Virus record (IMG/VR): IMGVR_UViG_3300028025_000965
Span: 1 to 35,778 of that record
Length of the DNA stretch: 35,778 nucleotides
Strand: one strand, 5' to 3'
Source of the DNA: a virus
Below are positions 825 through 9,677 of this stretch, one piece after another (position 1 is the stretch's first letter; the number at the start of each line of letters is the position of its first letter). The position numbers and the translations under genes are program-made. The notes beneath the pieces are model-generated. The model saw only the letters and a list, made by a program, of their open reading frames with translations. It had not been told where the DNA came from and ran no database searches.

Positions 825-1009
825 TGAGTGATAACCTATTACTAGACTTGACACCTCGGCAAGTAGAGGTAGTGCGACAAGCACTACGGCTACAAGAAGA
901 AGCGCACAAGCGCAACGGCTTCAAGGTATTAGAGATAGAAGCGCAAGAGTTTCGATCTTATATATCTGACGCAGTAATAGATAGCCAACGGAACTTGACA
1001 AGGGCATAG
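824..1009 (+). CDS. Hypothetical helical protein (61 aa)
   Basis: The ATG overlaps the stop of the preceding membrane peptide (TAATG), indicating translational coupling. The product is highly charged and predicted helical, with a start (LTPRQVEVVRQALRLQEEA) that resembles an amphipathic or HTH-like helix. It is too short for a confident family call. The 3' end of the gene contains the -35 box of promoter P5, so it also serves as regulatory DNA. Confidence 0.55.
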   Translation: MSDNLLLDLTPRQVEVVRQALRLQEEAHKRNGFKVLEIEAQEFRSYISDAVIDSQRNLTRA

Positions 1010-1023
1010 AGATATGCTATACT
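995..1023 (+). promoter_or_regulatory. Sigma70-type promoter P5
   Basis: TTGACA at 995-1000 and TATACT at 1018-1023 have a 17-base spacer. The -35 box lies inside the last codons of the preceding gene. P5 would drive the amidoligase and glutamine amidotransferase genes. It has the best overall match of the five promoters. Confidence 0.75.
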
Positions 1024-1051: not shown

Positions 1052-2314
1052 ATGGAAGAAGTAGAGTGCCACGATTGCAGTAATATCGCCGACATGAACT
1101 TAGAGATGAACGGCGACTACTACTGCGAAGATTGCGCTAATGCTTGCGGTAATTGTAGAGGCGTTCACGCCACCGATAGACTTCGGTGTGTCGGAGATGA
1201 ACTATGGTGTGAAGAGTGTTCTACCGAGTGCCAGCGTTGCGATAGCGGTGTAGATAGAGATGATACTTATAGCGTAGATGGCGAAGAATGGTGTCAGAGT
1301 TGCTATGAGTATAATACCTTCTATTGTAGCAGTTGCGAAACAAGTTACGATAATCACTATGATTACTCTAGCGTTGGCGATGATACTGTCTGCGAGAGTT
1401 GTTATTCCGATAACTGCTACTACTGCGATGATTGCAACGAGAACTACTACGATGATGATCCGTGTGAGTGCCAACTAGGTATTAGTGGTCGCCCATGCCG
1501 TTGCCGTGCCGTAGTGCATGACTACAACTGCAAGCCACCCGTTACTTTCAAGGGTGCTTCTAGACATGGTGTCTATCTAGGCTTCGAGTTGGAAACAGTA
1601 ATCAACGGAGATTATTCCAACGCCTCTAACTATGCTTCGACCAACCTACAAGGTATCGCCATGCTCAAGCATGACGGAAGCATAGGTGCTAACGGCTTCG
1701 AGATAGTAACCGAACCACACTCTCACTCAGAATACCGAGAGAATAGTAAGATACTATGGGATACCATAGACACACTACGCACCGAGCATGGTGCTAGGAG
1801 TTGGGATACCGAGAGTTGCGGACTTCATATCCATATCTCACGGGCAGGGTTTAGTGGCGGGGCACACACGCACCGCTTCTTATCTCTAGTCTATAAGAAC
1901 TCCGAGATGATGATGAAATTTGCGGGTCGCAAGTCCCGTTACGCTAGGTTCAACGATGTCTATACCTTCGATGAGTATGACAAGCCCGTGTTCTCACTCA
2001 AGCACAAGTTAAAGTTAGGTGAGCAGACGGAGAGATACACCGCGGTCAATACTAATAACCGCGACACACTAGAGTTGCGCTTCTTCAAGGGAACTATGAA
2101 CACAAGCGGTGTTCTATCTGCCCTAGACTTAGCGCAAGCAATGGTAGAATACACCCGTGATCTGCGCTTAGATGATGTCAAGCGTGGTGCGTTATCATGG
2201 GATTGGTTCGCCGACTATGTAGTTCAGAATAACGGACTATATCCCGACCTATATATGCGACTTAATAAAATAAGTGGCGTAGATATCAACCGACCAGCAG
2301 AACTAAACGCCTAA
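1052..2314 (+). CDS. Zinc-finger amidoligase (COOH-NH2 ligase) fusion protein
   Basis: This is a two-part protein of 420 aa. Residues about 6-151 hold a dense series of CxxC/CxxH pairs (C6/C9, C25/C28, C32/C35, C53/C56, C60/C63, C81/C84, C92/C95 and more), read as several treble-clef or LIM-like zinc fingers. Residues about 173-400 match the putative amidoligase family: GFELE at 177-181, a KHDGS turn near 206, FEIVTEP at 216-222, CGLHIHIS at 256-263 and LELRFFKGT at 340-348. That fold is related to glutamine synthetase and joins a carboxylate to an amine using ATP. The start follows a strong site GAGAGGGGGTGAG and promoter P5. The next gene, 14 bases on, encodes a glutamine amidotransferase; this pairing is known for phage and bacterial amidoligases. 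The substrate is unknown; cell wall, a peptide or a host protein are all possible. Confidence 0.8.
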   Translation: MEEVECHDCSNIADMNLEMNGDYYCEDCANACGNCRGVHATDRLRCVGDELWCEECSTECQRCDSGVDRDDTYSVDGEEWCQSCYEYNTFYCSSCETSYDNHYDYSSVGDDTVCESCYSDNCYYCDDCNENYYDDDPCECQLGISGRPCRCRAVVHDYNCKPPVTFKGASRHGVYLGFELETVINGDYSNASNYASTNLQGIAMLKHDGSIGANGFEIVTEPHSHSEYRENSKILWDTIDTLRTEHGARSWDTESCGLHIHISRAGFSGGAHTHRFLSLVYKNSEMMMKFAGRKSRYARFNDVYTFDEYDKPVFSLKHKLKLGEQTERYTAVNTNNRDTLELRFFKGTMNTSGVLSALDLAQAMVEYTRDLRLDDVKRGALSWDWFADYVVQNNGLYPDLYMRLNKISGVDINRPAELNA

Positions 2315-2328
2315 GAGGGGGTGAAAGT

Positions 2329-3165
2329 ATGTGTCTACTTGTAGTGTGTGAGCCTAACGGCATACCTAAACAAGAAGAACTACACGCAGGTGCTTGTAGT
2401 AATCCACACGGCTACGGCTTCGCTATTGTAGCAGGTGATAAGATTATATCAGAGCGTAGCATGTCGGCTAAGAAGTCTATTAAACGCTTCTTAGAATTGC
2501 GCGAGCAATACCCTAATGACTATGCTATATGGCACGCAAGATACGCCACGCATGGAGTAAAGAACGAAGCGAACTGCCACCCGTTCAAGGTAGGTGGTAG
2601 TGATCTGACTTACCTAGCGCACAATGGTGTGTTAGATGTAGCAATACCAGCAGGAGATAAGCGTAGCGATACCCGTATCCTAGCCGAAGATATACTACCG
2701 AAGATAGGTGGTGTTGCTTCGCTAGATGATGATACTATATGGAGTATGCTTAGCAAGTGGGCTAGTGGTAGCAAGATAGCGGTGCTTAATCTTGACCCTA
2801 GTGCGGGTAGTCAGATGTATATTATCAACGAGGAATTAGGTAGTTGGGATAGCAACGGCGTATGGTGGAGTAATAGTTCCCACAAGCGCAGTAACTATGT
2901 CGCACCCACCGCTAGTCTATACGATAACGAGTATTGGGTTAGAGAATATAAAGATTACCCCGTGTTAGATGTAGTAGATGAGACTACGGAGTCATTAGAC
3001 TTCTGCCCCTTCTGCCAAGCCTTAATAGATCTTAATGAGAGTGAGTTCTTCTGCGAACTATGCGACACCTGCTTCGATTGCGAGTCGGTGTTAGTAGACT
3101 GCCTATGCTATACTCCTAAGGGTATGTGGCGTAGCGAGAGAAGTCTGCATGACTTCTACAACTAG
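2329..3165 (+). CDS. Class II glutamine amidotransferase with C-terminal zinc ribbon
   Basis: This is an N-terminal-nucleophile hydrolase that would release ammonia from glutamine. After Met removal the catalytic Cys2 is exposed. Family motifs follow in order: NPHGYGFA at 25-32, WHARYATHG at 68-76, AHNG at 97-100 and SDTRILAE at 113-120. The C-terminus (about 226-260) carries a Cys-rich zinc ribbon with CPFC, CELCDTCFDC and CLC, echoing the zinc fingers of the amidoligase upstream. The start has the same GAGGGGGTGA-type site as the upstream gene, so the two are probably made in matched amounts. It likely supplies ammonia to, or trims amides made by, the partner amidoligase. The substrate is not deducible. 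Confidence 0.82.
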   Translation: MCLLVVCEPNGIPKQEELHAGACSNPHGYGFAIVAGDKIISERSMSAKKSIKRFLELREQYPNDYAIWHARYATHGVKNEANCHPFKVGGSDLTYLAHNGVLDVAIPAGDKRSDTRILAEDILPKIGGVASLDDDTIWSMLSKWASGSKIAVLNLDPSAGSQMYIINEELGSWDSNGVWWSNSSHKRSNYVAPTASLYDNEYWVREYKDYPVLDVVDETTESLDFCPFCQALIDLNESEFFCELCDTCFDCESVLVDCLCYTPKGMWRSERSLHDFYN

Positions 3166-3215: not shown

Positions 3216-3479
3216 ATGACCAACAATACAATACTAAATCTCGCAGATGAACTGCGGATTATCGCTGACGAAATCTCATACAATGCGTATGATGTATCAT
3301 CAGACTTCCACCCACGTGGAACTATCGTCAAGGCACTACCTACACAGACACGCTTCAAGCCTAAGTCTATGTGGGTATCACTAGGTGACGGAACTTACAA
3401 GCACCTTACAGGTAGCAAGGGTTTAACCGCTACTCACTCACGCCTTGAAGGCTACACCGAAGTTATCTTTCAGGGATAA
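3216..3479 (+). CDS. Hypothetical protein (87 aa)
   Basis: I do not recognise a family. The ATG follows AGAGAGG at suitable distance. The N-terminal third is an acidic amphipathic helix (LADELRIIADEI). The rest looks beta-rich, with a KSMWVSLGDGTYKHL segment that may be a small beta-barrel or substrate-contact region. It lies downstream of the amidoligase pair after a hairpin and may be expressed with it. It is complete, and no membrane segment or metal motif is visible. Confidence 0.55.
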   Translation: MTNNTILNLADELRIIADEISYNAYDVSSDFHPRGTIVKALPTQTRFKPKSMWVSLGDGTYKHLTGSKGLTATHSRLEGYTEVIFQG

Positions 3480-3696: not shown

Positions 3697-4080
3697 ATGG
3701 GTAGACGAGCAGGTATACCTAATAAAAAACCTAGGCTAGAGATACCAGCAATTAATATTGTAGGGACATGCTCTAGTAATGAGTTCGACCCTGACCTATG
3801 GTGGCATGATACGCCAGATACAGATACAGGATACAAGGCAACCCGAGCAGAAGTTAAGAAGTGTATTGATGACTCAAGTTTCGCGTTGTCTATATGCAAT
3901 AGATGTCCGTCTCAACCCGCTTGCCTTGCTGAAGGTATGCGCCCTGAGAATTTAGAGTGGGGTATATGGGGTGGGCTTACGTCAGGCGAAAGATTATCCC
4001 GTGCCAATGCCGTTGGTGCTGATGTCGTCCGAGAACGTAAGGTAAAATTCTCCGAGAAGATAAGGGCGAATATGAAATGA
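3697..4080 (+). CDS. WhiB-family [4Fe-4S] transcriptional regulator
   Basis: WhiB-like proteins bind an iron-sulfur cluster and region 4 of the housekeeping sigma factor, altering promoter choice. All four cluster cysteines are present in the family spacing: C25, then C67-x2-C70-x5-C76. The GIWGG turn follows at 89-93 with LTSGER. The tail is basic (RERKVKF near 112-118), as in DNA-binding members. The N-terminal extension is rather long. Its stop overlaps the start of the transglycosylase-like gene (ATGA). WhiB genes are restricted to Actinobacteria and their phages, which gives the host phylum. The phage copy probably modulates host sigma-dependent transcription. Confidence 0.9.
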   Translation: MGRRAGIPNKKPRLEIPAINIVGTCSSNEFDPDLWWHDTPDTDTGYKATRAEVKKCIDDSSFALSICNRCPSQPACLAEGMRPENLEWGIWGGLTSGERLSRANAVGADVVRERKVKFSEKIRANMK

Positions 4081-4469
4081 GATCACTACTATTCTTACTG
4101 TTTGTGTCGGTATCATTAGTTCTATTTGACACTCCAACAAGCGGACCGCAAAATAAAAAAGCAGAAGTTCAGACTTCGTGGAGTGAAGCAGATAGCAGGG
4201 CATACGCCCGTGATATGCTACACAAGTGGCAAGATAAACAATGGCTATGCCTTAGTAGATTATGGGGTAAAGAGTCAGCATGGAATCCCAAGGCTTACAA
4301 TAAGATTAAAGTAATGGGCAGGAACGCTGGCGGTATACCGCAACTACTAGGGCTTAGCCCTAACACGCCACCACCATTACAGATAGAGCGTGGCTTATCA
4401 TATATTTACTACCGATACGACACGCCTTGTAATGCGTGGCGACACTTCCTAAAGAAAGGGTGGCACTAA
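4077..4469 (+). CDS. Secreted transglycosylase/APF-like muralytic protein
   Basis: The start overlaps the WhiB stop by 4 bases. Residues 1-17 form a hydrophobic signal or anchor segment after MR. The core from about 57 matches the SLT-like C-terminal domain of actinobacterial aggregation-promoting and transglycosylase proteins: WLCLSRLWGKESAWNP with candidate catalytic Glu66, an AGGIPQ turn at 84-89, the GLSYIYYRY helix and a C-terminal W-x-H segment. C58 and C118 could form a disulfide outside the membrane. It would cut glycan strands of peptidoglycan. It sits in the early operon, far from the late CHAP lysin, so its job may be wall remodelling, superinfection exclusion or host growth rather than lysis. 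Confidence 0.75.
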   Translation: MRSLLFLLFVSVSLVLFDTPTSGPQNKKAEVQTSWSEADSRAYARDMLHKWQDKQWLCLSRLWGKESAWNPKAYNKIKVMGRNAGGIPQLLGLSPNTPPPLQIERGLSYIYYRYDTPCNAWRHFLKKGWH

Positions 4470-5316: not shown

Positions 5317-6000
5317 TTATATATTCTCTTCTTGGGATTCTTCTTCTATTTGATTTTCTTCTTCCGAGATACTAGGATTGTCTGGGTCTCTGTAAGGTCT
5401 GTAACCACCAAGCTTAATGATTAATCTTTTGACTGCTCGACCACCTCTCATTCGGGCAGCATCATCGCTACCTAGAGATAGATAATTTGCTATCTCTTTG
5501 TAGTCCATAGACTCAGCATAACGGAAGAAGAGTATCTTTCTATCCTCTTTACTCAACTTCCAATATGCCGAGTCTATTTCCATCATCATCACCGCTAGGT
5601 TACCACCTTCTGATGGCACACTATGGCCTCGAAGTCCACCTAGATCAAGCTTATTTGTAACACCATACTCATTACGCAACACAGCAGGGAGCAGTGCTTC
5701 TACAACTTCTGCCTCATAATAATATAGATCAGAGTAATCATAACCTATACTCTTGGCCTTCCAACGCTGACAATAATCTAATGCTTGATTGCGAAGCGAA
5801 CGATAGATTAAATTCTTTGCGTCTTTTTCTCCGATACTTTCCCAGTCATCAAGTTTATTAGGGTGAGTAGCAAACCATTCATATAAGGTTTGCTTTATAT
5901 CTTCGAGTTCAACCATGTCAAACTTACGGTGATACTCAGACGCTACTGCGGTAGCAATATAATCCCACTTCTCAATGCGTTCCCAATCCAATGCTACCAC
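5317..6000 (-). CDS. Sigma-factor-like transcription protein
   Basis: The frame opens to 6105 but would overlap the upstream phosphoesterase by 112 bases. GTG at 6000 overlaps that gene's stop and has GGAAAG upstream, giving 227 aa. Residues about 145-197 look like sigma region 4: DRKILFFRYAESMDYKEIANYL, split by KEIA in the turn of the helix-turn-helix, then a basic recognition helix ending GGRAVKRLI. Residues about 15-80 (KWDYIATAVASEY ... ARNQALDY-like helices) could be region 2. The C-terminus is a Glu-rich tail. As last gene of the leftward operon it may direct RNA polymerase to late genes. Confidence 0.65.
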   Translation of the reverse strand: MVALDWERIEKWDYIATAVASEYHRKFDMVELEDIKQTLYEWFATHPNKLDDWESIGEKDAKNLIYRSLRNQALDYCQRWKAKSIGYDYSDLYYYEAEVVEALLPAVLRNEYGVTNKLDLGGLRGHSVPSEGGNLAVMMMEIDSAYWKLSKEDRKILFFRYAESMDYKEIANYLSLGSDDAARMRGGRAVKRLIIKLGGYRPYRDPDNPSISEEENQIEEESQEENI

Positions 6001-6734
6001 TTCCAAGTCTTTCCATCTACCGTAAATGAATTGTTTACAATAGGAACAAGTTGTGGTATAACAGTCTTGCCGTCTACCTTTAAGATACCGAAGCCTTGTT
6101 GCCATGTAAACAAGCCAGCCTTAATATACTTAGCGTTGCGATAATCCATTAGGTTACCCAACTCCATACCCCACACAGTCTTAGGCTTACCGCCACGATA
6201 TGTCTGTGTCTGGTGTGTCAACCCCATTCTATGCGTGTGTCCACATACCACGCTCATGCCTGAACGCTTGGCTAAACCAAGTGCAGTAGCACCAGCAGTA
6301 GGCTGGACATTACCTTCATCACCATGCATAAGTAACCAGCCTGGTGCTAATTCATATGGGTCAGTGTGATACTTAATCTCAAGTTCTTTAAGTCCCAAGA
6401 AGTTTTCTAATTGTAATTCAGGTAGCCCTAGTAATCCAGGGGCACGCATAGCAACCGTGTTAAACAAGCGGTCAGTATGGTTACTTCTCACCATATGCTC
6501 AACAGTTAAATCATATAGAACCTGACGAGTCAAGTCACGGTCACGCCCAATAGAGCGTTCAAACTCCAACTCAGTTCCCTTACTCCACTTCGAGATTGTT
6601 TGCATATCCATCTCATCACCACACGATACAACAGTATCAGGTTGGTATGCCTTAATGAATTTAGCGACAGCTTTGGTTGCTTCTACATCGTGATACGGAA
6701 CTTGAAGATCAGAAATGCATACAATAGTTTTCAT
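5994..6734 (-). CDS. Calcineurin-like metallophosphoesterase
   Basis: The ATG at 6734 overlaps the upstream stop (TAATG); an ATG four codons earlier is possible. The product is 246 aa. The metal-binding motifs of the superfamily occur in order: D-x-Q-x-P-x-H near 9-15, GDEMD at 39-43, SNHTD at 84-88 (in place of GNHD), HGDE at 137-140 and GHTHRMG at 165-171. It would hydrolyse a phosphoester using two metals. Substrates could be nucleic-acid ends, cyclic or dinucleotide signals, or protein phosphate. Its place among nucleotide and replication genes favours a nucleic-acid or nucleotide substrate. Confidence 0.82.
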   Translation of the reverse strand: MKTIVCISDLQVPYHDVEATKAVAKFIKAYQPDTVVSCGDEMDMQTISKWSKGTELEFERSIGRDRDLTRQVLYDLTVEHMVRSNHTDRLFNTVAMRAPGLLGLPELQLENFLGLKELEIKYHTDPYELAPGWLLMHGDEGNVQPTAGATALGLAKRSGMSVVCGHTHRMGLTHQTQTYRGGKPKTVWGMELGNLMDYRNAKYIKAGLFTWQQGFGILKVDGKTVIPQLVPIVNNSFTVDGKTWKW

Positions 6735-7117
6735 TAGATATCCCACTGTTCTCTTAGAACTAGCAACCCTATGATTGCATAGTTAGCCATGTCCTTGAAT
6801 GAATCTTCCAAACTCTCGTGCTCAGGGCTTGCGCCACTATCTACTAAGTTATTTATGCGAGCTAACTTGTCATGCATTCTTACTCGAAGGCCGTTAAGTG
6901 CACCCCCAGGTGCATCTGAGATGTTCCTTGGGCCATAGTCTCTATGCTTACTGAGTAATAATTCAGTTAACTCGTTAGAGATTTGATATAAAGATAAGCT
7001 TAAGCCGTCTTCCCTAGAAGCAAAGGTATCTCTAGCGTGACGATTAAAGTATTCTCCATCTTTTTCAACGAGGTAACTTGGAATCCTTGGTCCGTTAAGT
7101 GGTTCATTACTTGCCAT
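6734..7117 (-). CDS. MazG-like / DUF1599 nucleotide-associated protein
   Basis: The 127-aa product matches the DUF1599 (Nmad1-type) fold: HRDYGPRN near 57-64, then RVRMHDKLARINNL and a helix ESLEDSFKDMANYAIIGLL with spaced acidic residues suited to binding metal. Related phage proteins are annotated as MazG-like nucleotide pyrophosphohydrolases or as partners in nucleotide modification. The stop overlaps the downstream phosphoesterase start. It probably cleanses or channels nucleotides during replication; the exact substrate cannot be read from the sequence. Confidence 0.72.
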   Translation of the reverse strand: MASNEPLNGPRIPSYLVEKDGEYFNRHARDTFASREDGLSLSLYQISNELTELLLSKHRDYGPRNISDAPGGALNGLRVRMHDKLARINNLVDSGASPEHESLEDSFKDMANYAIIGLLVLREQWDI

Positions 7118-7123
7118 ATCTCT

Positions 7124-7462
7124 TCATTCTCCATCTTCCAAGAGTTGTTTGAGTTCTTCATCTATTCCTACCATACTAGAGCCAACAATCATATCGTGAA
7201 CTACTGCACCTAATGTTTCAGGTGATGTTTCTGCTGTGAATAGCGTAAGATAAGTTGATTGCGCTACACTTTTAACCATATCAGGTTCGTCTGCGTATCT
7301 ATATATACAACGCAATAAAGAACCAACTAATAATCTATAACCATTAGGCAGAATCAATGCTGGGTCAAACTCTTCATCATCCTCGAGCATATGGTCTATT
7401 GATTCAAAGACATCTTCAAATACTTCGCCACAATCTGGGCACTTATTCTCATCTTTATTCAT
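7124..7462 (-). CDS. Hypothetical zinc-finger protein (112 aa)
   Basis: The N-terminus holds CPDCG (residues 8-12) and a His at 24 in a C2H2-like arrangement. The rest is helical and acidic (SIDHMLEDDEEFD; EELKQLLEDGE). The start ATG overlaps the stop of the Toprim gene by 8 bases, indicating coupling to the primase. The family is not recognised. A helper for primase or replication is inferred only from position. Confidence 0.5.
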   Translation of the reverse strand: MNKDENKCPDCGEVFEDVFESIDHMLEDDEEFDPALILPNGYRLLVGSLLRCIYRYADEPDMVKSVAQSTYLTLFTAETSPETLGAVVHDMIVGSSMVGIDEELKQLLEDGE

Positions 7463-8081
7463 TACCCAATCCTATCTTATCTCTAATGAACTCAGCTCCA
7501 TACTTTGTGTATGCTGAGTTTACATCTTCTCCATCTGGGAAACTGACGATAGTAACTGGTAGCTCCCGCGCCAAAGAGTTAGCGAATTCTTTCCCTGGTT
7601 GGTCGCCGTCAGCAAATACGAATACTCGTTCAAAATCTGCGAGCAATCTTGTGTAGTGTTTTTTCCACGAGTTCGCACCAGGAACACCGACACAAGGAAC
7701 ACCAACACAACGAGACATAGTAAGGGTATCAAGTTCACCTTCACATACTCCAATCCAATCGCCTGCTCTATCAATATCTAACACGTTATACATCTTGGTT
7801 TCAGCACCAGTCATACCCATATACTTCGGTTCAACAGCAGGATTAAGACTGCGAAAACGCAGATCGACCACGCCAGTCTTGGTAATATACGGTATGGATA
7901 ATCGTCCGAGGAATTGTTCGTGTCCAACTTCAGGCTCCGCGACTACGCCTAATCGAGCCAGACGTGCTACTTCTATTGTTATACCCCTGCTTTTCAGGTA
8001 ATCTTCTGCCTGATAAATGTTTTCCTGATACTTGCGAACTGCTGACTCCAGCAAATCCTTCTGCGAATCTCGCTGCTTCAC
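7455..8081 (-). CDS. Toprim (C-terminal) half of DnaG-like primase
   Basis: The open frame extends to 8144, but the start is uncertain. GTG at 8081 has AAGAAAGG upstream, and the product may instead be joined to the CHC2 half by a +1 shift. The Toprim signature is clear: VCEGELD near 133-139 (acidic catalytic Glu) and FADGDQPG near 177-184 (DxD), numbered from 8144. The preceding segment (YLKSRGI, IPYITKTGVVDLRFRS, PKYM) is typical of the primase polymerase linker. It would synthesise RNA primers with the zinc-binding half encoded immediately upstream in an overlapping frame. See the frameshift finding. Confidence 0.75.
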   Translation of the reverse strand: MKQRDSQKDLLESAVRKYQENIYQAEDYLKSRGITIEVARLARLGVVAEPEVGHEQFLGRLSIPYITKTGVVDLRFRSLNPAVEPKYMGMTGAETKMYNVLDIDRAGDWIGVCEGELDTLTMSRCVGVPCVGVPGANSWKKHYTRLLADFERVFVFADGDQPGKEFANSLARELPVTIVSFPDGEDVNSAYTKYGAEFIRDKIGLGNE

Positions 8082-8295
8082 GTATGTCACACCTTTCTTG
8101 TTGAGCAATAATTTGTAAGCTATTCCCTTGCACTCCACACGCAAAGCAAACGAACAAGTTCTTATCTAAGTTTGCTGTTCCTGACTGGTGACTATCACCG
8201 TGGAACGGACACTTTAGATTTACTTGACCGTGGTCTCGGCGTATAATACCGCCGTAATGTTCAAGCACTTCTTTGATTGGTGGTAAATCACTCAC
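7930..8295 (-). CDS. CHC2 zinc-binding half of DnaG-like primase
   Basis: The N-terminus matches DnaG-type primases: C29-x2-H32 and C50-x2-C53 (KCPFHGD, FVCFACG) form the CHC2 zinc finger, then the helix QIIAQQERCDIREAARFAEGF. After residue about 80 the frame degenerates into Ser/Arg-rich sequence with no primase character, while the +1 frame continues as a good primase (LLESAVRKYQ, AEDYLKSRGI). The genuine product is therefore either short or a frameshift fusion with the Toprim part. The ATG at 8295 overlaps the upstream methyltransferase stop by 8 bases. Confidence 0.75.
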   Translation of the reverse strand: MSDLPPIKEVLEHYGGIIRRDHGQVNLKCPFHGDSHQSGTANLDKNLFVCFACGVQGNSLQIIAQQERCDIREAARFAEGFAGVSSSQVSGKHLSGRRLPEKQGYNNRSSTSGSIRRSRGA

Positions 8296-8758
8296 CCTTC
8301 ATCACCACAACCGCTGATGGAAATGGCGCAGAGTTTTTTTGATTACCAAATTTTAATCTTCCTTTAATAAATCTAACTTCATGTTGAATACAATAGTCAT
8401 GCCACCACTTAGTGTCAGTTCGTGCTGGCACTAAACAAACAACAGTTAGTCCACGCTTAGTGGCTTCATAGTTCGCTTTGTTAAGCCAGTTCTTAATTGA
8501 TCTACCATAAGGTGGGTTCAACCAAACAGTTTTAGATGGTGCATATTGTGACCAGTCCATAACAAAAGCATCTGTAAGGTTAGAGTCATCATGGTCTGGC
8601 CCAAACCAATTGTCACATAGGGCTGATGACTTCATTGCTGCTGCGTCAAGAGAGAAACTAAACTCTTCATTTAACCTATCGTAAAAGTTACGCGGTGTTG
8701 TCCAAGTGTCATCACTAGATGTCTTGAACGTGTCGGTCTTATAGAATCCTTCAGTCAT
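8288..8758 (-). CDS. dam: Phage DNA N6-adenine methyltransferase (Dam type)
   Basis: The ATG at 8758 overlaps the upstream stop (TAATG); the longer frame to 8950 has an Arg/Ser-rich non-coding-like extension. The 156-aa product matches phage N-6-adenine methyltransferases: DTWTTP near 17-22, LDAAA at 37-41, catalytic NPPY at 81-84, a LVPARTDTKWWHDY segment and a C-terminal APFPS strand. It transfers methyl from SAM to adenine in DNA. Lying beside a nuclease and a second methyltransferase, it may protect phage DNA from host restriction. The target sequence is unknown. Confidence 0.85.
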   Translation of the reverse strand: MTEGFYKTDTFKTSSDDTWTTPRNFYDRLNEEFSFSLDAAAMKSSALCDNWFGPDHDDSNLTDAFVMDWSQYAPSKTVWLNPPYGRSIKNWLNKANYEATKRGLTVVCLVPARTDTKWWHDYCIQHEVRFIKGRLKFGNQKNSAPFPSAVVVMKGE

Positions 8759-9120
8759 TAGAATATATCCCCTAGCCTGAAGACCACATACGATTCTGAA
8801 ATAGGTTTGCCTCTGGCTTTGATGATGAGGGCTGCGAGGACCGCTTCTTGTGGTAGTCCTCTTGCTGTTGCGTAATGGTTGGCTTCGATGTTCGCTTCCT
8901 TGGTCCAACCGCTGAGGTCGATGGCGTTTCCTGCGCCAGGAGCTTTGCACTCGATGACACCAATGCTTCCAAGGAAATCGCTACGGACTGCAACATCTCC
9001 TTCGTCTCTTGCACCAGTTCTTGCAAGTCGTTCAGCATCGTATCCATTTGTTCTAAACCAATCTCTGATGTCTGTTTCAAAACTAGCACCCCTTTGCTTG
9101 TGTGATTTTCTAGTTGTCAT
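8758..9120 (-). CDS. PD-(D/E)XK nuclease, Holliday-junction-resolvase-like
   Basis: The ATG at 9120 overlaps the preceding stop (ATGA); an ATG at 9135 is an alternative. The 120-aa product has the ordered catalytic set of the archaeal/phage resolvase group: Glu15 (RGASFE), GD at 41-42 and ECK at 57-59 with a following W-x-x-E helix. It would cut branched DNA during replication or packaging. It could instead be a small restriction-type nuclease, given the adjacent adenine methyltransferase, but the resolvase-like spacing is the better fit. Confidence 0.72.
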   Translation of the reverse strand: MTTRKSHKQRGASFETDIRDWFRTNGYDAERLARTGARDEGDVAVRSDFLGSIGVIECKAPGAGNAIDLSGWTKEANIEANHYATARGLPQEAVLAALIIKARGKPISESYVVFRLGDIF

Positions 9121-9677
9121 ATTTTCTGCACCCATACTTGGTAGTCTTTGGTTAAAATAGTATACTCACCTTCATGAAACTCAAGGAAGTTATCAATGGC
9201 TGGTCTAGGTGTAAGTTCAGGCTTCATGTCCTGGCCCCACATATAGTCATCAAAGGCAAGGATACCATCCTTCTTTAATAGTTCCCAAGAATACTCAGCA
9301 TCAAATGCTACAGCATCGGCTGTATGGTTAGCATCTATATAAATAAAATCATACTTGCCAAGTGGAACATTGGTAAAGAATTCTTTAGTTGTCATTATGT
9401 AAGGGACACAAGGCTTCTCTTGTATCTTAACGCTATATACATTAAAAACTTCATTAAAGTTTATGTTCTCATGTTCCCGTTCATCACTACCTTTCCAGGT
9501 ATCAACATCACGCAGAAAACTATTCTTACCTGTAAGTATATTGTCACACAACCATACGCTAGCATCACCTGTATACGCACCAAGTTGTAAAAATCTTAGA
9601 TTAGGTAAGCCCTTGAATCTTTCAAGATGCTCTTCGAAGTTATACTTCTGACCTTCAAACCAATTCGGAAATTCCAT
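9117..9677 (-). CDS. Class I SAM-dependent methyltransferase
   Basis: The Rossmann-fold methyltransferase motifs are clear: LQLGAYTGDAS at 30-40 (SAM-binding loop), YDFIYIDANH at 109-118 and GILAFDDY at 138-145. The DANH/AFDDY layout matches the Methyltransf_24 group, which often modifies sugars, lipids or small molecules rather than DNA. It is complete at 186 aa and coupled to the helicase upstream (TAATG) and the nuclease downstream. The substrate is unknown. Confidence 0.78.
   Translation of the reverse strand: MEFPNWFEGQKYNFEEHLERFKGLPNLRFLQLGAYTGDASVWLCDNILTGKNSFLRDVDTWKGSDEREHENINFNEVFNVYSVKIQEKPCVPYIMTTKEFFTNVPLGKYDFIYIDANHTADAVAFDAEYSWELLKKDGILAFDDYMWGQDMKPELTPRPAIDNFLEFHEGEYTILTKDYQVWVQKI

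Follow-up and report, generated by a model that had tools for sequence, protein, structure and literature searches.

We have analyzed a stretch of viral DNA of 35,778 bases, which we call the window. Two adjacent genes near its beginning code for an amidoligase with an N-terminal array of predicted zinc sites and for a class II glutamine amidotransferase (GATase). The two open reading frames are separated by 14 nt (the first ends at 2314, the second starts at 2329), and each of them is preceded by a GAGGGGGTG ribosome site. The features of the locus and of the genes which follow it are these:

995 to 1023, plus strand: sigma-70-type promoter with an extended -10, before the amidoligase gene (TTGACA-17-TATACT, 11 of 12)
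1052 to 2314, plus strand: zinc-array amidoligase gene, 420 aa (open reading frame, Pfam and PHROG)
1067 to 1471, plus strand: N-terminal LIM-like array with five predicted four-cysteine zinc sites (aa 6–140; net charge -30 over 150 aa)
1559 to 2311, plus strand: GS-fold amidoligase catalytic domain (aa 170–420; invariant E179, E181, E217, H259, H261, R293, N333, E341 and R343)
2329 to 3165, plus strand: class II GATase gene, 278 aa (Pfam, similarity to GlmS and PurF)
2329 to 2892, plus strand: glutaminase domain (aa 1–188; nucleophile Cys2; invariant R71, N99, G100 and D114)
3004 to 3108, plus strand: predicted C-terminal zinc tail (aa 226–260; C-x2-C-x12-C-x2-C-x2-C-x2-C-x6-C-x-C)
3216 to 3479, plus strand: 87 aa protein without known domain, next gene after the pair (highly conserved within this phage group, 68 of 82 loci)
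3697 to 4080, plus strand: WhiB-like regulator, same early gene block (PF02467, 1.9e-8)
4077 to 4469, plus strand: small transglycosylase-like protein which begins with a hydrophobic stretch (phrog_12661, 1.6e-17)

The relatives of this virus reach 38–41 kb, and the record ends inside the portal gene, so the window is probably incomplete.

The amidoligase

A preliminary description of this DNA assigned the C-terminal domain of the first protein to the amidoligases, which is confirmed both by Pfam and by the predicted fold. The protein matches Amidoligase_2 (PF12224) with 26.8 bits (cut-off 22, aa 213–365) and PHROG 2443, annotated as 'amidoligase enzyme' (2e-10): The profiles place the domain inside this family, not outside it. 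The structure predicted for the single chain has a mean pLDDT of 90.6. Its catalytic domain resembles YbdK in fold comparisons (Z 13.4–13.8) and also matches plant glutamate-cysteine ligase and glutamine synthetases (Z 11–12); GmaS and the Pup enzymes Dop and PafA are also among the Foldseek matches. When 74 ligase sequences are aligned, S210 is found to be invariant as well as the nine residues listed above. Of the features which characterize Amidoligase_2, the protein thus has a profile score above the cut-off, a predicted GS/GCS fold and conserved acidic and histidine active-site residues.

The N-terminal region (residues 6–140) contains 20 cysteines in paired motifs and is modelled as a series of short hairpins. 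Each of the zinc-site cysteines is kept in 48–74 of the 74 aligned relatives, and almost all losses are alignment gaps by which entire pairs disappear, mainly towards the N-terminus. Judging from this pattern of conservation, the motifs are not due to chance. PINCH LIM domains match the profile of the 74 relatives (2.8e-6, a type of score which is partly compositional in cysteine-rich regions), and Foldseek pairs the predicted array with PINCH LIM4-5 (3.3e-4). All predicted zinc ligands are cysteines, and successive modules are separated by 3 or 7 residues in the array of the ligase and by 2 in the GATase tail. Since this departs from the exact LIM spacing, we call the array LIM-like rather than LIM. 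It is strongly acidic (over 90 relatives, the median charge per 100 aa is -14), which favours a protein over a nucleic acid as its target.

The glutamine amidotransferase

The second protein scores above the cut-off for GATase_4 (24.2 bits, cut-off 23) and just under it for GATase_6 (25.1 bits, cut-off 27), and sequence comparison shows its similarity to GlmS and PurF. Residues C2, R71, N99, G100 and D114 are present in all 52 GATases aligned. The predicted fold (mean pLDDT 85, moderate in the zinc tail, about 72–86) superimposes on the GlmS glutaminase with Z 14.1 and rmsd 3.6 over 173 aligned residues. The protein therefore shows the features of class II GATases, that is, a cysteine after the initial methionine, the arginine, Asn-Gly and aspartic acid residues, the profile and the glutaminase fold. 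Its C-terminal tail contains eight cysteines. Pfam, the predicted fold and this motif agree with the preliminary description, according to which the partner of the ligase was a class II GATase carrying a zinc tail of its own. No hydrophobic segment was found in either protein.

Compared with the two nearest relatives, dN/dS is 0.16–0.19 for the amidoligase gene and lies within 0.13–0.19 for the GATase gene. The zinc parts alone give 0.11–0.19, a constraint similar to that of the enzyme parts. By this measure, purifying selection acts on the zinc part and on the enzyme part of each gene.

Distribution of the pair in phages

Both genes are found in 196 loci of close relatives, and the loci with a single gene are mostly cut at contig ends. 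These loci are redundant, so we sampled more widely, using as seed a diverse ligase alignment and then the catalytic domain alone. With the diverse alignment, a GATase is present in 71 of 80 distant loci, in 66 of them on the same strand and no more than 200 nt away; of the nine loci without it, seven stop at a contig edge. When the catalytic domain is used, zinc plays no role in the ranking of loci. The GATase is then directly downstream of the ligase in 70 of 78 loci, and five others stop at a contig edge. Almost all relatives whose flanking sequence is long enough thus have the two genes side by side. Its occurrence elsewhere had been predicted, with a search among other actinophages as the proposed check: The pair does recur, for example in the actinophage Marvin.

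At least two CxxC motifs precede the enzyme domain in 66 of the 78 amidoligases found with the catalytic domain. Among 47 non-redundant pairs, zinc motifs are present on both partners in 24, only on the ligase in 16, only on the GATase in one and on neither in six. Going by these motifs, fusion to zinc modules is normal for this branch: most relatives have it on the ligase, and about half of them on the GATase. The presence of zinc on both partners, which had been thought unusual, is therefore common.

The 47 non-redundant pairs have no third gene which recurs beside them, except actinophage genes such as WhiB. Some relatives lack one of the elements: In AR1086-1, a phage of Clostridioides difficile, and in two related contigs (G016 and G017) the ligase is present and no GATase was found anywhere in the record. 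Neither the GATase nor the zinc motifs are therefore strictly required in the family as a whole. In AR1086-1 (L366, 3677–5866) the ligase has no zinc motifs, and its neighbour looks by eye like a nucleotidyltransferase.

Two further observations were set aside. In one locus (L322, 2443–4023) ligase and GATase are joined in a single frame. We do not take this fusion as proof of interaction: The N-terminus of the GATase and its catalytic cysteine are missing, and the zinc region of the ligase is apparently in a different frame. The locus resembles a degenerate copy or a product of misassembly. The apparent association between zinc on the ligase and zinc on the GATase (Fisher p = 0.04) treats the 47 non-redundant pairs as unrelated and was not accepted either; the numbers of CxxC motifs on ligase and GATase are not correlated (Spearman 0.13, p = 0.37).

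Pairs in Nocardia genomes

The pair had been regarded as a phage system, a view which has to be widened, as it is also found in Nocardia genomes. When genomes of bacteria and archaea are scanned, relatives appear in Nocardia and in a small number of metagenome bins, part of which could be contigs of phages. The GATase is present in 34 of 98 sampled Nocardia genomes, always in at least two copies, and about a third of the sampled Nocardia species carry the pair. All 16 Nocardia regions which we fetched have a ligase-GATase-ligase-GATase tandem, with a third pair in two of them. Every copy has zinc motifs: most ligases have about ten CxxC and most GATases four. The loci from Nocardia genomes are L373–L388, together with L190, L194 and L196. 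Another conserved gene, with a CxxC...HxxC motif, is found close to the pair in most Nocardia regions.

As the two genes remain neighbours in widely different phages and also in Nocardia, they very probably act as one machine.

Genomic setting and expression

Besides the WhiB-like gene, this virus encodes a protein of the mycobacteriophage L5 gp49 type, and both indicate an actinobacterial host. The promoter before the ligase is kept in the same place in most relatives inspected (it is absent in L026, L028 and L038). It belongs to a row of sigma-70-type promoters with TTGAC(A/T) in the first 1050 nt of the window, with starts at 13, 102, 227, 639 and 995. Promoter-like sites between 1 and 5400 are about twice as frequent as in shuffled sequence, and several of them have an extended -10. 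Positions 1–1050 are likely to be an early control region, and the row of TTGACA promoters, one of them before the ligase, suggests early expression by the host polymerase.

The 87 aa protein was considered as a third partner or substrate and discarded, as it is confined to this phage group and is not recognisable elsewhere. Marvin gp107 is similar in size and place; it shows no resemblance by eye and gives no match. The transglycosylase-like protein could be an early protein which acts on the cell wall. A group of genes on the minus strand (5317–9677) includes a sigma-factor-like gene, a calcineurin-like phosphoesterase, a DUF1599 protein, a Dam methylase and a second methyltransferase.

Possible function of the pair

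We favour, with some confidence, the interpretation that the pair is a cytosolic two-subunit amide ligase dependent on glutamine, whose zinc modules would dock a macromolecular substrate. The GATase would hydrolyse glutamine by means of its N-terminal cysteine and release ammonia. The GS-fold subunit would use ATP to activate a carboxylate and join to it the ammonia transferred from its partner, or another small amine, to form an amide. Both steps are proposed because of the families to which the two proteins belong. The acidic LIM-like arrays of the ligase, and the zinc tail of the GATase where present, would dock a macromolecular target, such as a host or phage protein or a peptide; this role is suggested by their likeness to LIM and their acidity, a weaker basis than that for the chemistry. 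The zinc modules, which according to the preliminary description may bind the same target or each other, might in addition keep the two subunits joined. Expression would be early, from the host-type promoter.

A more specific version can be put forward as a tentative suggestion, which we consider possible and rather doubtful. The arrays on ligase and GATase might recognise one host protein early in infection, whose carboxylates, in side chains or at the C-terminus, would be amidated, while the tandem copies in Nocardia might serve the cell itself. We know of no dedicated protein-amidation system of this kind in bacteria or phages. If the suggestion were true, this would be a new post-translational modification system in them. 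The change of a carboxylate to an amide modifies the mass by -0.98 Da. A two-gene branch with candidate docking modules on both partners, present in phages of Mycobacterium smegmatis (the Marvin group) and in Nocardia, makes the question of the substrate testable.

Other functions have to be weighed. The pair might amidate cytosolic precursors of the cell wall, blocking superinfection or tuning lysis. Peptidoglycan modification has been proposed for the related genes of the phiEco32/PSA-HP1 cassette (PMC5498523; cited also in PMC10580990 and PMC11318856), and the gene block of the pair also codes for the transglycosylase-like protein, which is conserved in 64 of 82 loci. However, two other genes of that cassette, coding for a COOH-NH2 ligase (PF14395) and a gamma-glutamyl cyclotransferase (PF06094), were not found in any of 16 near-full-length records, including that of the window, nor in Marvin, MEP402 and MW202733; the LUZ24 and phiEco32 controls were positive for both. 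The profile for the RimK-like ATP-grasp protein of the cassette also gives 0 of 16, but it is insensitive, since it misses LUZ24 and remains below the cut-off in phiEco32. Moreover, CxxC motifs are entirely absent from the amidoligases LUZ24 gp18 and phiEco32 gp84, and a long acidic LIM-like array would be odd for a small lipid-linked precursor. We consider this function unlikely.

Still less probable is the production of a small amide metabolite or peptide. Secondary metabolism is mentioned for phage Marvin in PMC10580990, and the tandem pairs of Nocardia would be a plausible setting for two successive amidations, but among the neighbours of the pair in the 47 diverse loci there is no recurrent gene for a precursor peptide or for biosynthesis.

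GATase domains occur in some pathways of deazaguanine synthesis, and this phage group encodes a Dam methylase and a DUF1599 protein, but a modification of DNA bases, such as the amidation of a carboxylated deazaguanine, is very improbable: The zinc arrays are acidic, and QueC (PF06508) and tRNA-guanine transglycosylase (PF01702) are found in 0 of 16 near-full-length relatives, with positive cellular controls. A role in anti-phage defence was also considered and dropped, as PADLOC gave no match.

Comparison with known systems

Pairs of amidoligase and GATase have been noticed in phages since 2009. In the literature we have searched, no substrate is named for them and no mention of the zinc parts was found; Iyer et al. 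2009 and Mageeney et al. 2012 lie outside that search.

The catalytic domain of the ligase shares its fold with the superfamily which includes YbdK, glutamine synthetase, GmaS and PafA-Dop. To our knowledge, these enzymes have neither a zinc array nor a dedicated GATase partner.

In the cassette of phiEco32, LUZ24 and PSA-HP1, a PF12224 amidoligase adjoins a class II GATase, as in the window. This cassette differs in its much longer GATase and in the addition of a COOH-NH2 ligase, a RimK-like ATP-grasp protein and a gamma-glutamyl cyclotransferase. We therefore place our pair outside it, because two diagnostic genes of the cassette are not found with the pair and the ligases of the cassette have no CxxC, although the principles are related.

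The Nocardia arrays have the same gene order as the window and zinc motifs on both partners, but they are double or triple tandem pairs in bacterial genomes.

In phages MEP401 and MEP402 of OM43 (Methylophilales), amidoligase and GATase are adjacent and overlapping, in the same order as in the window, and have been published as PF12224 plus PF13522. They differ in being almost devoid of zinc motifs (the ligase has a short cluster of cysteines, the GATase none), in a long unrelated N-terminal region and in a Gram-negative host.

Marvin gp105/gp106, from a Mycobacterium phage, also has the gene order of the window, with 30% identity in the ligase and 33% in the GATase. Zinc cysteines are present on both partners, and the cysteine tail of gp106 is very similar to that of the GATase in the window. 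The differences are a shorter zinc array and a long extra C-terminal part in gp105, and a gap of 79 nt between the genes. Another 18 phage records resemble this pair. Marvin gp105/gp106 and the MEP401/MEP402 genes, already annotated as amidoligase and GATase, are the closest published relatives of a pair which is real, conserved and poorly described.
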